Below, one piece after another: positions 2,846-23,966 of a DNA stretch of 32,605 nucleotides. Numbering within the stretch: the stretch's first letter is position 1; the number at the start of each line of letters is the position of its first letter. The position numbers and the translations under genes were made by a program. Source of the DNA: Dehalococcoidia bacterium (GTDB lineage Bacteria > Chloroflexota > Dehalococcoidia > SHYB01 > SHYL01); the NCBI GenBank assembly GCA_009692825.1, contig SHYL01000010.1:1-32605 (forward strand), given 5' to 3'. Under the pieces are notes generated by a model, which did no database searches, was not told the origin of the DNA, and saw nothing but the letters and a program-made list of their open reading frames with translations.

Positions 2846-3619
2846 TTGAAGATCGCAACGTGGACCGTTAACTCCATACGCGCAAGGCTAGATCGTCTGC
2901 AGACGTGGTTGTTAGCTAATCAGCCTGACTTGCTCTGCCTGCAGGAGCTTAAAGTCGCCGAGGATGCGTTCCCATTAAAGCCGATTCGTAAGGCTGGTTA
3001 TTACGTATCCATGAACTGTCAGAAGACGTATAACGGCCTTGCTATCCTCTCAAAAACCGAACCTGTTGATGTGAGAAGCGGCTTTGCGGACGGTATTGAA
3101 GACGCTGAGGCGCGGCTCATGTCCGCTACGGTTGACAGCGTCCGCATTATCTCTGACTACATCCCAAATGGTGATACTACAGCTTCCGACAAATATGCTT
3201 GGAAGCCTGAATGGCTCGGCAGGCTAAAAACCTAACTCTCGAAAGTAGATACCACTGCTGAATAAAATGGTTATCTGCGGCGACTTTAACATCGTTCCAG
3301 CCGCCATCGACGCTGCGAGGCCTGAATCATGGGAAGGCAGTGTTCTCTACAACGAGGATCTCAGGCGGGAGTTCTGTCTTATTCAGGAGCTTGGCTGGGT
3401 CGATATCTTCCGTCGGCATAAACCTGAGGCTGGACTGTATTCATGGTGGGACTACCGTCAGCTTTCATTCCAGCGCAACGATGGCCTACGTATAGGCCGC
3501 ATTCTTGCTACCCATGCCCTGGCGCCATCTAGCACCGGTGCTGGCATCGATAGAGAGGCGCGCAAAGGCGGGAAGCCCCTCCGATCACGCGCCGGTGTGG
3601 GCAACCTTCGACGTTAAAT
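2846..3619 (+). pseudogene. xth: exodeoxyribonuclease III (xth), nonsense and frameshifted
   Basis: Frame 1 KIATWTVNSIRARLDRLQTWLLANQPDLLCLQELKVAEDAFP...QKTYNGLAILS...WLGRLKT*; second frame MVICGDFNI...WEGSVLYN...LYSWWDYRQLSFQRNDGLRIGRILAT...IDREARKGGKP; then third frame PSDHAPVWATFDVK*. Confidence 0.88.
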
Positions 3620-11052: not shown

Positions 11053-11697
11053 TTACTTCTTCGGTTCTGTGAACATCCCCATTTGGCGCTCGTTGTCCTC
11101 AATCTCTGCTTCTTCCGCCCATATCTTGCTCTGGTCGGGGCCGCGCTGGCCTGCGTATTTGTTGCCCTTCTTCTTGTAGTAGGGCTGTGAGGTCGGTGTA
11201 AGCAACGTTTCGAACGTCATCGAGCATATGCGCAGGCCTGGGTAAAGCGCCACTGGAAGCACGCCCAGGTTGCCCAGCTCCATCGTCGCTACGCCGCGCC
11301 AGCCGGGATCGAACACGCTCGCCGTACTGTGCACTATCAGTCCCAGTCGTCCAAGGCTGCTTCTGCCTTCAAGCCGTCCCAGGATATCATCTGAAATCTC
11401 AAGCCACTCCAGCGTGCTTGCGAGTACGAACTCGCCCGGGTGCATGATGAACCGCGAGTTCTTGGAGTCCAGCTTGACTTCACGCGTCAGCTTTTCTGAT
11501 GATTTTCTTTCCTTCAGATCAACGTACGGGTGCTCGGTGTGCTCGAATATCCTGAACCTGTACCCCAGCCTCAGGTCAATGGAGCATGATCCTATCGTCA
11601 GGTCCTTTACTTCAAGCGTTTTATCGATTGCGGTATCGTGCACAACGATCTTCTTGTCGGCGATGTACCTCTTGATGTCGATGTCTGATAGGACCAC
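11053..11697 (-). CDS. dcd: dCTP deaminase family protein with conserved catalytic Glu
   Basis: GRLEGRSSLGRLGLIVHSTASVFDPGWRGVATMELGNLGVLPVALYPGLRICSM. Confidence 0.88.
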   Translation of the reverse strand: MVLSDIDIKRYIADKKIVVHDTAIDKTLEVKDLTIGSCSIDLRLGYRFRIFEHTEHPYVDLKERKSSEKLTREVKLDSKNSRFIMHPGEFVLASTLEWLEISDDILGRLEGRSSLGRLGLIVHSTASVFDPGWRGVATMELGNLGVLPVALYPGLRICSMTFETLLTPTSQPYYKKKGNKYAGQRGPDQSKIWAEEAEIEDNERQMGMFTEPKK

Positions 11698-11706
11698 GGT
11701 TTTCCC

Positions 11707-12243
11707 CTATATCTGGCGTTGTCCGCCTTGAAAATTGCTGCCGAGTCCTTCAGACCCGTACGGACGCTCTGAGCTTGTTGATGTCTTGATGAATGTTATC
11801 TGGCATATCTTCATTGGCGATGCCAGCTTGATGGGCAGTGCCCCCACGTTCTTGAGCTGTATCGTCAGCTTGCCCTGCCAACCGGGGTCCACGAAGCCGG
11901 CCGTGGCGTGTATCTGCAGTCCGATGCGCCCTAGCGAACTCTTCCCCTCCAGCTTCGCCACGATGTCCTCAGGCAGGCCGATGAACTCCAGCGTCGACGC
12001 GAGCACGAACTCGTTCGGCTTAAGGATATACGGCTGCTCCTGAGTAGCCTTGGCTTTGGTGAGGAGGTTCGCGAGATCCTTGCGTGCCGGGTCTATGAAT
12101 GGAGTTGAGCCTGTGAACAGGAGCAGTTCCTCGTCCAGGTGCAAATCCACGCTTGCGGGCTGGATGCAGGAGGCGTCCAGTGGCTCAATCTTCAGCCGCT
12201 TCTGTGCCAGCTCCTGCTTTATCGACTTATCGCTGAGTAACAA
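11707..12243 (-). CDS. dCTP deaminase/dUTPase-family paralog with Glu to Gln at the catalytic position
   Basis: MLLSDKSIKQELAQKRLKIEPLDASCIQPASVDLHL; AKLEGKSSLGRIGLQIHATAGFVDPGWQGKLTIQLKNVGALPIKL; ERPYGSEGLGSNFQGG. Confidence 0.85.
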   Translation of the reverse strand: MLLSDKSIKQELAQKRLKIEPLDASCIQPASVDLHLDEELLLFTGSTPFIDPARKDLANLLTKAKATQEQPYILKPNEFVLASTLEFIGLPEDIVAKLEGKSSLGRIGLQIHATAGFVDPGWQGKLTIQLKNVGALPIKLASPMKICQITFIKTSTSSERPYGSEGLGSNFQGGQRQI

Positions 12244-19174: not shown

Positions 19175-19434
19175 TTAGTTATCCTTTCTCGTACTTTTCA
19201 CTTTAGCTTTTTTGTATAGCTTTTCTTGTACAAAAAGTCTCTCGTAAAAGCGACCAGCGATAATACTGTACCTTTACAAAATTGGTGCTCATTCATGTGC
19301 AGCGAATGTATATGTGCCTTGTAATAGGGAAATCCCAGCCTGTGTATGAAGTAGTGTTCAATGATTTCATGCCGCCGAACTATTTCCTGGTATTTTGCGG
19401 GGTAATGCTTATCGATAAAAATCGTTAAGGTTGT

Positions 19435-19557
19435 TCAGTCCTGCTCATGCCAGCCTCCATAAGGCTCCTTGTCGACTAGCTTTGTGACTATCTTTTCAAC
19501 AGGGGGAAGCCTGTGAGAATCCTTCGTGGATAGAAAATGTCTGCGAAGGATCGACAT
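19435..19557 (-). CDS. possible small ORF
   Basis: MSILRRHFLSTKDSHRLPPVEKIVTKLVDKEPYGGWHEQD*; no recognised family. Confidence 0.2.
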   Translation of the reverse strand: MSILRRHFLSTKDSHRLPPVEKIVTKLVDKEPYGGWHEQD

Positions 19558-19700
19558 GCTTGTTTGCCTTTCGTTTGCTTGCTATCAACAGTGTTGAGTC
19601 TCCTTCACTATATGCCCTTTCGTAACCAATACTGCAAAGTCGTATAATTCTGCCACCGCTTACAGCGATTTAAAACTATAAAAAACTACTGGAGGTTGCC

Positions 19701-20060
19701 ATGGCTGAAGAAATGGACATAAGGGAAGATGGGGAAGGTGTATTTTCAGAGGGTTCGCTTCGTAAGGAAGGCAAAGGCGTAACAGCCCAAAGCCAGCAAT
19801 TGAAGCCTGTGGGTGAAGGTGTGAGGATGGATAATTTTAGCCATCGTACTTATGGCGCGGGTGTGGCAGGCTTTGATTCTAATCTACGTCATGCAGGTGA
19901 AGGGACGCTTGAATCAGTGAACCCATCGTTGCGGACGCACGGTGCAGGCGTGTCAGGCGCTGATTCTAATCTGCGCAGCCACGGTGACGGTGTATCGAAG
20001 AGCGGCCAGCAGCTGCGAAGTTCTGGCGCTGGCACGAAAGAGGAATGGGAATCCGGTTAG
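19701..20060 (+). CDS. tandem-repeat protein, about eight 14-residue LRxxGxGV repeats
   Basis: 119 aa with GGAGG RBS: IREDGEGVFSEGS/LRKEGKGVTAQSQQ/LKPVGEGVRMDNFS/HRTYGAGVAGFDSN/LRHAGEGTLESVNPS/LRTHGAGVSGADSN/LRSHGDGVSKSGQQ/LRSSGAGTKEEWESG. Confidence 0.8.
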   Translation: MAEEMDIREDGEGVFSEGSLRKEGKGVTAQSQQLKPVGEGVRMDNFSHRTYGAGVAGFDSNLRHAGEGTLESVNPSLRTHGAGVSGADSNLRSHGDGVSKSGQQLRSSGAGTKEEWESG

Positions 20061-20095: not shown

Positions 20096-20320
20096 CTAAT
20101 TTCTCATTAAGTCGCCCTTCCTCCCGCTAACGTACGTCCCCTTCCACGCGAGCGCGATGTCCCGCAACCCCTCCATCACAACGTAGGTTATCGCTAGCGC
20201 CGTGCTCAGGTCCATCGCCTTCTCCGGCGATATCTGGTCCGACATAGCTTCGGCAATCGTGCTGACTATACCCAGCGCCACGAACCAGAACTTACGACTG
20301 ATCAATTTTGACATCATCAA
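20096..20320 (-). CDS. small holin-like/phage-type membrane protein
   Basis: MMMSKLISRKFWFVALGIVSTIAEAMSDQISPEKAMDLSTALAITYVVMEGLRDIALAWKG; hydrophobic segments, phage-like size and context. Confidence 0.45.
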   Translation of the reverse strand: MMMSKLISRKFWFVALGIVSTIAEAMSDQISPEKAMDLSTALAITYVVMEGLRDIALAWKGTYVSGRKGDLMRN

Positions 20321-20593: not shown

Positions 20594-21637
20594 TTAGCCT
20601 ATGCCCATCCTGTTTCGCACGAGTGCCGCAGTCTTTTCGGCCACTTCTGAGGCCTTACCTGCGCCTTCTTTCAAGAGCGCGTCCAGCTCAGTCGGCGACA
20701 TCATAAGCTCTGCATATCGATTTTGCAGCGGTTCCAGCGATGCCACAACGGCATCTGCTACTTTTGTCTTAAGAGCCCCGTATGTGATGCCGTTGAAGCT
20801 GTCCCATGCGGTCTCCTTCGTCGCGCCTGTCACAGCGCGGTAAATCTCGATAAGGTTCGTTACTCCGGGGCCCGCGTTTTGCACGTCCACAGCGGAGCCT
20901 GAGTCGGTCTGAGCGCGCATAATCTTGCGCTTTATCTGTTCAGGCGGGTCCAGCAGCCTGATGGCATGGCCTGGATTTGTATCTGACTTGCTCATCTTCT
21001 TCGTAGGGTCGTCTAATCCCATTATTTTTGCGCCGGCGCCGATGTGCCCTATCAACGGCCTGGGCAGTTTGAACGTTTCGCCGTAGACGCGGTTAAATCT
21101 CGTTGCTATATCGCGCGTCAGCTCCAGGTGCTGGCGCTGGTCTTCGCCCACAGGCACGAAGTCTGCCTGGTATGCGAGTATATCTGCCGCCATCAGCACC
21201 GGGTATATGTATAGGCCTGTCTGTACGCTCTCTGCTTCAGTATTACCTGATTTATCCTTGAACTGGGTCATGCGGCCCAGCCATCCCATCGGCGTGATGC
21301 AGGTCAGCATCCAGCTCAGCTCCACGTGCGCTCTTACGTGGGACTGCACGAAGATAGTGGAATGCTTGAGTTCCAGTCCCGCGGCAATGTATAGGGCTGC
21401 CAGCTGTCGAGTTTGTTCGCGTAATAGCTTCGGGTCCTGGTAAACGGTGATTGCGTGCAGGTCCACGATGCAAAAGTAGTTACGGTACTTCTCCTGGCCG
21501 AGCACCCATGGCCTCAGTGCGCCGAGGTAGTTACCCAAGTGTAAGCCGCCGGATGGCTGTATCCCGCTTAATACGACTGGTATATCTGCCATGACAGCAA
21601 TTTTATCGTGAGTAGGCTTGAATGCAATGCCACTCAT
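20594..21637 (-). CDS. trpS: tryptophanyl-tRNA synthetase
   Basis: VVLSGIQPSGGLHLGNYLGAL (HIGH-like); PVGEDQRQHLELTRDIA; KKMSKSD (KMSKS). Likely true start is the internal MADIPVVLSG. Confidence 0.95.
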   Translation of the reverse strand: MSGIAFKPTHDKIAVMADIPVVLSGIQPSGGLHLGNYLGALRPWVLGQEKYRNYFCIVDLHAITVYQDPKLLREQTRQLAALYIAAGLELKHSTIFVQSHVRAHVELSWMLTCITPMGWLGRMTQFKDKSGNTEAESVQTGLYIYPVLMAADILAYQADFVPVGEDQRQHLELTRDIATRFNRVYGETFKLPRPLIGHIGAGAKIMGLDDPTKKMSKSDTNPGHAIRLLDPPEQIKRKIMRAQTDSGSAVDVQNAGPGVTNLIEIYRAVTGATKETAWDSFNGITYGALKTKVADAVVASLEPLQNRYAELMMSPTELDALLKEGAGKASEVAEKTAALVRNRMGIG

Positions 21638-21692: not shown

Positions 21693-21911
21693 TTACTCAT
21701 CTTTTGCGCTGACTATCAGGCTTTCGAGCCATATGCGCTTGGCATTTGGCTCATCGCTCGAGTTGTCGGCCTGCATAACGAACGTCTTATCGATCGCGCG
21801 CAGCACTGCTTTTGGCGGCGCAGCCATCTGTTTGACTCTGTCCAGCCGAGTATCAAATGGGCGTCGCGCCTCAGCCACCAGTGCCTTCACAGGTTCCGCC
21901 AGCGCTTTCAC
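21693..21911 (-). CDS. hypothetical, translationally coupled to the prohead protease
   Basis: GTG start overlaps the protease stop as GTGA; VKALAEPVKALVAEARRPFDTRLDRVKQMAAPPKAVLRAIDKTFVMQ. Confidence 0.5.
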   Translation of the reverse strand: MKALAEPVKALVAEARRPFDTRLDRVKQMAAPPKAVLRAIDKTFVMQADNSSDEPNAKRIWLESLIVSAKDE

Positions 21912-22579
21912 GAGCTCACCTTGGGCGATTTTGGAGACTCTCGCTGGGCCTCAGTTGCCGCTATTATTCTGCCCATGTGAAATAGGTCTCGTTTGTCTAG
22001 GTTCTCGGATGCTATCTCTGCCAGGCGTCTTCCCACCCGCGCCCACTCTGAACGGCTGTATCTGCCCTTATATCGTGAGTCCCTTTCGTTAAACGCCCGT
22101 AATAGCGCCTCAGCGTTACCGTCATCAGCCGCTTTAACAAGTAGAAACCTGGCGTTCTCGTTTGCAAGGTGGTCTACTAGCGAAACTTCTACGATGCTTC
22201 CCCCAATGATTCGACCGCATGGCGCTCCGGAATCGCTTCTTATTACGGGGTTCTTAATGCCTATGCTAAAGCCCTTGTATACGCTGGCCTTTACCTTTTC
22301 CCAGGCGCCGCTATCGATGATACGGGCCTCTAAGTAGAATCCATCGTCTTTTTCTTCAAATTCCTGTCCAACGCCTGCGGCAAGCGAGTGATGCATTTTT
22401 CGTATGTTCCCCCACCGCTTGAACCATTGCGGGACCTCTCTCCTCAGCCATCCGCGGTCCGCGATTTGTCCGTCTAGGTCTGGCGAATCGTCCGCGACCT
22501 TGCCATAGACGATGTGCTGGTCATCGTCAAACTTCACGATCTCTGCGAATAAAGCTTTGCTGTCAGTTTTAGTAATCAT
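21908..22579 (-). CDS. HK97-type phage prohead protease
   Basis: FDDDQHIVYGKVADDSPDLDGQIADRGWLRREVPQWFKRWGNIRKMHHSLAAGVGQEFEEKDDGFYLEARIIDSGAWEKVKASVYKGFSIGIKNP...IVEVSLVDHLANENARFLLVKA. Likely start MITKTDS at 22579. Confidence 0.72.
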   Translation of the reverse strand: MITKTDSKALFAEIVKFDDDQHIVYGKVADDSPDLDGQIADRGWLRREVPQWFKRWGNIRKMHHSLAAGVGQEFEEKDDGFYLEARIIDSGAWEKVKASVYKGFSIGIKNPVIRSDSGAPCGRIIGGSIVEVSLVDHLANENARFLLVKAADDGNAEALLRAFNERDSRYKGRYSRSEWARVGRRLAEIASENLDKRDLFHMGRIIAATEAQRESPKSPKVSS

Positions 22580-22646
22580 TGGGCCATTCCTGTATTTACT
22601 TCGATTTCCGAAATATTTATGGTATATTTGTTGAAATTCTTTTTGA

Positions 22647-23966
22647 GTGACTGTTTGCGTGAGATCTGGTATAACTAAACCTCCCGGTAAAGACGACCCT
22701 TCCGAAAATAGCGGCCCCACCGATGCCAAGAGTTCAGCCCCCGAAAACATAAAAGGACTTGCATCCTTACAGTTTGAGGGTTTTCGCCTGCTTTTTTGGA
22801 GCACCCCATTCGGCAACATTGGGAACTCCATGCGAACGATTGTCAACGCATGGCAGATATACGAAATCACCGGGTCGTCTGCCCAGTTGGGTCTTGCCTT
22901 CTTGTTTCAAGGTATACCGGGTATCTTCTTTTCGGTCTTCGGCGGCACGCTTGCTGACATGTTCGACAGGCGGAAAATTATCAACATCAGCCAGGGATAT
23001 CAGATTCTCTCTGGCGTCGCGCTTGGGTTTCTCACGTTGTCGGGCCATATTCACGTTTGGCATATCTACGTGATGACATTCTTGTCGTCCTCTATAGGCA
23101 GTGCGGCAGGCCCCGCACGCCGCGCTCTTATTACTAACCTTGTGCCGAGATCCCATCTGCTTAACGCCACTACCCTGCAGACGTCTGTACAGCAGGCTAC
23201 ACAGATTGCAGGCCCAACCCTGGCAGGATTCATCCTTGCAGGTTTTGGCCCCGCTCCCGCCTACTTCATAAACGCTTTATGCATAATCCCTGGCTACTAC
23301 GCCATCATGCTGTTGAAAGATAGACTGGTCCAGAAGGATTCAGGCAAAAAAGAGAAAGTAAAACTGAACCTCAGCTCTATTTTTGGTGGGCTTGTTTTTG
23401 CATGGCAAAGCCAGGTACTTCTATTTATCCTTCTGATGGATACGGTTACTAATGTGCTGGGCTACTACCAGTACATGATGCCCGTAATAGCTAAAGATAT
23501 CCTCAATGCTGGCCCTATTGGGCTTGGTATCCTTCTATCAGCTACACCGTTTGGTTCTTTCTTTGGTTATGCACTGATACTGGCTCTTGGGAACCTTAAG
23601 AGAAAAGGATTGGTGATGGTGATAACCGTTATCGTATACAACATATTCCTGTTTGCTTTTGCCCAGTCCAGGGTGTTTTGGCTGTCGCTTCTGATCTTGG
23701 GGGCTATGGGCGCTGTTGATGCGTTCAGCCGTGCGATTAGGAACACGTTGTTGCAGCTTATGGCGCCTGACGAGAAGCGTGGAAGAGTGGTCGCCTTGAG
23801 CCAGATATTTGCTGGAGGCGGCAACTCTATGGGCGGTGCCTATCTTGGGTTCATGTCGGAAGCCATAGGCATCCAGAAGGCTCTTGCAGTTGGAGCCGTC
23901 ATATCTGCAGGGTTTGCCGTTAGCGTTGGCGCTTTCGTCAAGCGCGTACGCAAGTTCGACGTATAA
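22647..23966 (+). CDS. MFS transporter (EntS/MFS_3-like exporter)
   Basis: FGGTLADMFDRRKIINISQG; TQIAGPTLAGFILAGFGPAPAYFINAL; about 12 TM segments. Confidence 0.88.
   Translation: MTVCVRSGITKPPGKDDPSENSGPTDAKSSAPENIKGLASLQFEGFRLLFWSTPFGNIGNSMRTIVNAWQIYEITGSSAQLGLAFLFQGIPGIFFSVFGGTLADMFDRRKIINISQGYQILSGVALGFLTLSGHIHVWHIYVMTFLSSSIGSAAGPARRALITNLVPRSHLLNATTLQTSVQQATQIAGPTLAGFILAGFGPAPAYFINALCIIPGYYAIMLLKDRLVQKDSGKKEKVKLNLSSIFGGLVFAWQSQVLLFILLMDTVTNVLGYYQYMMPVIAKDILNAGPIGLGILLSATPFGSFFGYALILALGNLKRKGLVMVITVIVYNIFLFAFAQSRVFWLSLLILGAMGAVDAFSRAIRNTLLQLMAPDEKRGRVVALSQIFAGGGNSMGGAYLGFMSEAIGIQKALAVGAVISAGFAVSVGAFVKRVRKFDV

Follow-up and report, generated by a model that had tools for sequence, protein, structure and literature searches.

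A short open reading frame of a Dehalococcoidia bacterium (P0001; positions 19701–20060 on the plus strand, stop codon included) encodes a 119 aa protein built of eight units of about 14 residues. The frame lies in contig SHYL01000010.1, whose positions 1–32,605 were analysed as a whole and are hereafter called the window. Judged by its sequence, the protein is a genuine lineage-restricted orphan, its unit being new in sequence and ordinary in kind. Tentatively, we propose that it is small, soluble and cytosolic, and that its units could stack to form successive turns in a thin, hydrophilic, oligomeric beta-roll or solenoid.

The frame, assigned on the basis of sequence and codon-position pattern, begins with ATG at 19701 and ends with a TAG stop finishing at 20060. 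A Shine–Dalgarno-like GGAGG can be read 5 nt ahead of the ATG (19691–19695, plus strand), and the host genome carries a single copy of the gene. A short acidic leader, MAEEM, precedes the first unit, and the eight units account for residues 6–119 with nothing left over; no N-terminal signal was found in the protein on inspection. The good ribosome-binding site GGAGG, the acidic N-terminus and the absence of cysteine, which the earlier note had pointed out, agree with our reading of the sequence.

On the plus strand, the units are DIREDGEGVFSEG (unit 1, 19716–19754), SLRKEGKGVTAQSQ (unit 2, 19755–19796), QLKPVGEGVRMDNF (unit 3, 19797–19838), SHRTYGAGVAGFDS (unit 4, 19839–19880, with H in place of L), NLRHAGEGTLESVNP (unit 5, 19881–19925, 15 aa), SLRTHGAGVSGADS (unit 6, 19926–19967), NLRSHGDGVSKSGQ (unit 7, 19968–20009), and QLRSSGAGTKEEWESG (unit 8, 20010–20057, a degenerate tail). 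They range from 13 to 16 aa and follow the consensus [DSNQ]-[LIH]-[RK]-x-x-G-x-G-[VT]-x5. The strict motif [LI][RK]xxGxG[VT] occurs seven times, at residues 7, 20, 34, 62, 77, 91, and 105, and an eighth occurrence with H for L is found at residue 48. Successive motifs are spaced by 13, 14, 14, 14, 15, 14, and 14 residues, the period being 14 in five of seven cases, and both one-residue slips (13 and 15) fall inside the variable x5 stretch, none of them between L, R, GxG and V. GxG, R/K and V/T are kept in all eight units and L/I in seven of them, while the residue preceding L is always the turn-prone, polar S, N, Q, or D (8/8). Along the protein, hydrophobic L/I and beta-branched V/T thus alternate at intervals of seven residues.

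Self-identity of the protein reaches 0.229 at lag 14 and 0.222 at lag 29. Among 20,000 composition-preserving shuffles used as a null model, none contained two or more motifs and none matched either observed self-identity. Since no shuffle came near the observed motif count or self-identity, the eight-unit repeat is confirmed, and with it the earlier description of eight LRxxGxGV units of about 14 residues filling most of the 119 aa. The core of the consensus given there also stands, while its trailing N/S/Q is better placed as position 1 of the following unit.

No significant match to the protein was found in NCBIfam or PHROGs (best E 0.092 in the latter), none in the PADLOC defence models at E 1, and none among PDB sequences with either the single sequence or a unit profile. 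In Pfam (hmmscan, E 10), only PF22190 was listed, at 0.092, and no solenoid or beta-roll model appeared. The earlier statement that no named family has this unit is therefore upheld across all five libraries. Only chance matches were obtained in 60 related genomes, including those of the same order, in about 393 genomes of the class searched with a two-unit pattern and then the unit profile, and in 301 genomes of the phylum searched with the unit profile. The nearest genomes searched belong to the same order, the host family being represented by the host genome alone. The conservation in relatives on which the earlier note had made its reading depend was thus not seen in the order, the class sample or the phylum sample. 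A peptide-seeded scan of one genome per species, able to detect close relatives only, returned no relative, and neither did the same type of scan of viral contigs, tblastn against 50,697 phage records, or a search of plasmid records. A three-unit DNA pattern run against one genome per species yielded no recognisable member of the repeat family among the matches listed, although distant members are possible; most of these matches were minisatellites, either of the GGGATTC type or exact ones within other proteins.

Several individual matches were rejected. In genomes of the class, Gly-rich matches with E between 1e-4 and 1 were regarded as chance, the frames lacking a second motif. A two-unit DNA pattern match in genome G241 (L034), LREFGDGT-LRAEGTGA, was likewise taken as chance because the short frame that contains it showed no further units. 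Profile matches in G450 (L165) and G288 (L173) were single, short, and located in non-repetitive frames, and a Pantoea plasmid match (tblastn, E 3e-3) proved to be a QGSGLRT minisatellite beside repB with no annotated gene. As a separate observation, GGGATTC-type minisatellites, translated as IRDQGSG or IRDSGFG, occur in many bacterial phyla among the matches listed (L036–L149).

Comparison with known repeat systems revealed partial likenesses. Curli proteins of the CsgA type also have a GxG per unit flanked by S, Q, or N. However, their period is about 22 rather than 14, while the present protein is highly charged and has no signal peptide; no curlin match was found in Pfam at E 10, and no csg genes were recognised near the gene. 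MORN repeats have a similar HGxGV-like core but a period of about 23, and the protein shows neither their aromatic YxGxWxxG signature nor a Pfam match to them. The best PDB sequence match was the Sel1-like 1ouv (E 0.079, not significant and with no passing stretch), which shares a local G-x-G-V; Sel1 units, however, are paired helices of about 36 residues, unlike the 14-residue unit, and no Pfam Sel1 match was obtained. The closest parallel in period is the YadA-like head (Hep_Hag) repeat, exemplified by BpaC, with its 14-residue unit, glycine-anchored turn and polar turn residues, and with cores that can be hydrophilic (PMC9543794). The 14-residue period is common to both, but there was no Hep_Hag match in Pfam at E 10 or better. 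Moreover, with eight units in 119 aa and without signal peptide, neck, stalk, or anchor, the protein does not belong to the secreted trimeric autotransporters, and it differs from Hep_Hag in the invariant R/K following the hydrophobic residue.

Since the protein has no detectable relative in the collections searched and lies in a setting of phage remnants, its role must be inferred from its regular structure. In the proposed beta-roll, the protein would have grown through internal duplication of the 14-residue unit, each unit making one turn of a two-sided roll. In each turn of the roll, a first strand would be centred on Leu-2, GxG (positions 6–8) would reverse the chain, a second strand would start with the beta-branched Val/Thr-9, and the polar residue S/N/Q/D-1 would provide a further bend. 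The narrow core would be built of Leu and Val at a distance of seven residues, and because this core is very small, the roll would probably depend on homo-oligomer formation for its stability; the oligomer could display a regular ladder of R/K charges for binding a partner. Stacked repeats keep their hydrophobic and glycine positions and leave those in between free to vary, and the units show the same pattern. We favour the beta-roll because the kept positions fit stacked turns, because the slips fall in x5, and because beta-rolls with 14 residues per layer, one of them hydrophilic in its core, are already known in trimers (PMC9543794). A more far-reaching version, for which our confidence is low, is that [SNQD]-L-R-x-x-G-x-G-[VT]-x5 defines a new minimal 14-residue beta-solenoid family, free-standing, cytosolic and hydrophilic, and possibly spread by phages of poorly sampled Chloroflexota-like bacteria.

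The AlphaFold monomer model of the full-length protein, made with no alignment, had a mean pLDDT of 51, and the second half modelled with the first half as its sole relative had a mean pLDDT of 39; both contained almost no secondary structure. These models are uninformative, also as regards the left-handed parallel beta-roll trimer that characterises YadA-like heads, and constitute weak evidence either way, because only one or two sequences, and no alignment, could be supplied. Together with the position on the Uversky plot, the lack of a Pfam solenoid or beta-roll match, and the failure to find relatives that would show the repeat conserved across species, the low pLDDT values count against the beta-roll.

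Nearly as likely, and held here as tentatively, is that the protein is a disordered, glycine-rich multivalent binder presenting eight LRxxGxGV linear motifs, or a hydrophilin-like protectant. The earlier note had likewise suggested a solenoid or a disordered binding repeat, two readings between which we judge the evidence to be almost balanced. Its composition (Gly 21/119, or 17.6%; Ser 12.6%; 31 charged residues; GRAVY -0.83), its H of 0.408, which against a Uversky boundary value of 0.428 falls barely into the disordered range, and the near absence of secondary structure in the models speak for disorder. Hydrophilins and LEA-like proteins are likewise glycine-rich, hydrophilic, small and repetitive. 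The glycine content is well above the 6% expected of a hydrophilin; however, GRAVY is not below -1, the value that defines this group (PMC4190154), and no Pfam LEA match was found. Furthermore, a flexible chain would need neither strict spacing of motifs nor a hydrophobic residue at every seventh position.

The surroundings of the gene bear on its origin. The earlier note passed over two phage-derived neighbours, both within 3 kb of the repeat gene. The first is a 74-aa frame on the minus strand (20096–20320), which matched no holin model and which we call holin-like from the look of its sequence and the context of a relative in another genome of the class (L170; 37% identity, E 8e-4). That relative adjoins an Amidase_2/endolysin gene with a phage integrase nearby, as in a prophage lysis cassette. 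The second (21908–22870, minus strand) encodes an XkdF-like head maturation protease (Peptidase_S78_2, PF14550 above the cut-off; PHROG annotation, head maturation proteases), 43% identical to its best phage match, from Thermoanaerobacterium phage THSA-485A. Its true start is probably near 22580, since the listed frame overlaps the MFS gene, and no portal or capsid gene was recognised beside it. Between these two lies trpS (20594–21637, minus strand). Its matches among phage records were to short or unannotated records or to records of bacterial genomes, and it was therefore taken as bacterial and not as a phage gene. Its product shares only 34–37% identity with the TrpS proteins of the same order but as much as 52% with one in a Listeria-derived record, and horizontal replacement of trpS is possible. 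About 500 AT-rich bases with no convincing frame (19180–19700) separate the repeat gene from a small membrane protein frame, and neither an Rfam family nor a terminator was found in the repeat-gene region. Elsewhere in the window, an Exo_endo_phos (exonuclease III-like) gene at 2846–3617 (plus strand) is split into two frames that align one after the other along a single Pfam model, which may reflect a frameshift, a pseudogene, or an assembly error, and two dCTP deaminase-like genes, both PF22769, stand in tandem at 11053–12243 (minus strand).

Given the XkdF-like protease and the holin-like gene, the region around trpS is probably the scar of a decayed prophage, and the repeat gene may have come in as phage cargo. 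That it was a cargo or structural gene of this prophage, such as a moron or a fragment of a fibre or decoration protein, now kept or decaying, is on balance unlikely; such an origin would be compatible with either the folded or the disordered reading. Beyond the proximity of the two phage genes, it would explain the third-position GC of the frame (0.45 vs 0.64 in the genes of the window) and its low codon-usage score. It also accords with the situation in three of four genomes of the same order, in which a surE-like gene (so named by eye) comes before the LON-domain gene and folB after it, with no repeat gene; the fourth gave no match in this comparison. On the other hand, the repeat gene lies on the strand opposite to the phage genes, neither viral contigs nor the phage records contained a relative, and other short frames of the window share the low third-position GC.

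That the frame is non-coding, a decayed repeat array open by chance, is highly improbable, even though it has no homologue and scores only 0.076 per codon for codon usage, within the range of the other genes of the window (0.05–0.39) and lower than most. The score is nevertheless above zero, and all five other frames score lower. The DNA has diverged so far that Tandem Repeats Finder barely registers the repeat, which in the protein remains clear. Across all pairs of aligned units, codon positions 1, 2, and 3 differ by 0.50, 0.48, and 0.72, respectively, and different codons are used in 90 of 127 comparisons of identical residues, counts that are indicative, since the pairs are not independent. 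The best DNA pair, a 44-nt direct repeat on the plus strand (19845–19888 and 19932–19975; 75% identity, 87 nt apart), relates units 4–5 to units 6–7, and we read it as the trace of a two-unit duplication, the repeats having apparently spread by internal duplication. Between these unit pairs, nine codons differ synonymously, eight by replacement, and six are identical, with 15 changes at third, eight at first, and six at second positions, an approximately twofold excess at the third. This pattern bears the signature of selection on the protein. Because of these third-position and synonymous differences, together with the GGAGG site, the frame is very probably a real protein-coding gene with atypical codon usage.

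A multi-core precursor of the RiPP type, with one core per unit, is scarcely credible, for although the units are of near-identical length and follow a short acidic start, no adjoining modification enzyme, protease, or dedicated exporter was recognised (the MFS gene lies at a distance of 2.6 kb, beyond trpS), there is neither cysteine nor an invariant Ser/Thr-rich core, and no RiPP family model matched.

If the protein folds, it would be among the smallest natural beta-rolls and could serve directly as a scaffold for design, besides showing clearly how internal duplication within one lineage can give rise to a repeat protein. A disordered protein would be an ordinary orphan. With either outcome, short repeat genes can arise beside prophage scars and be missed by every family library.
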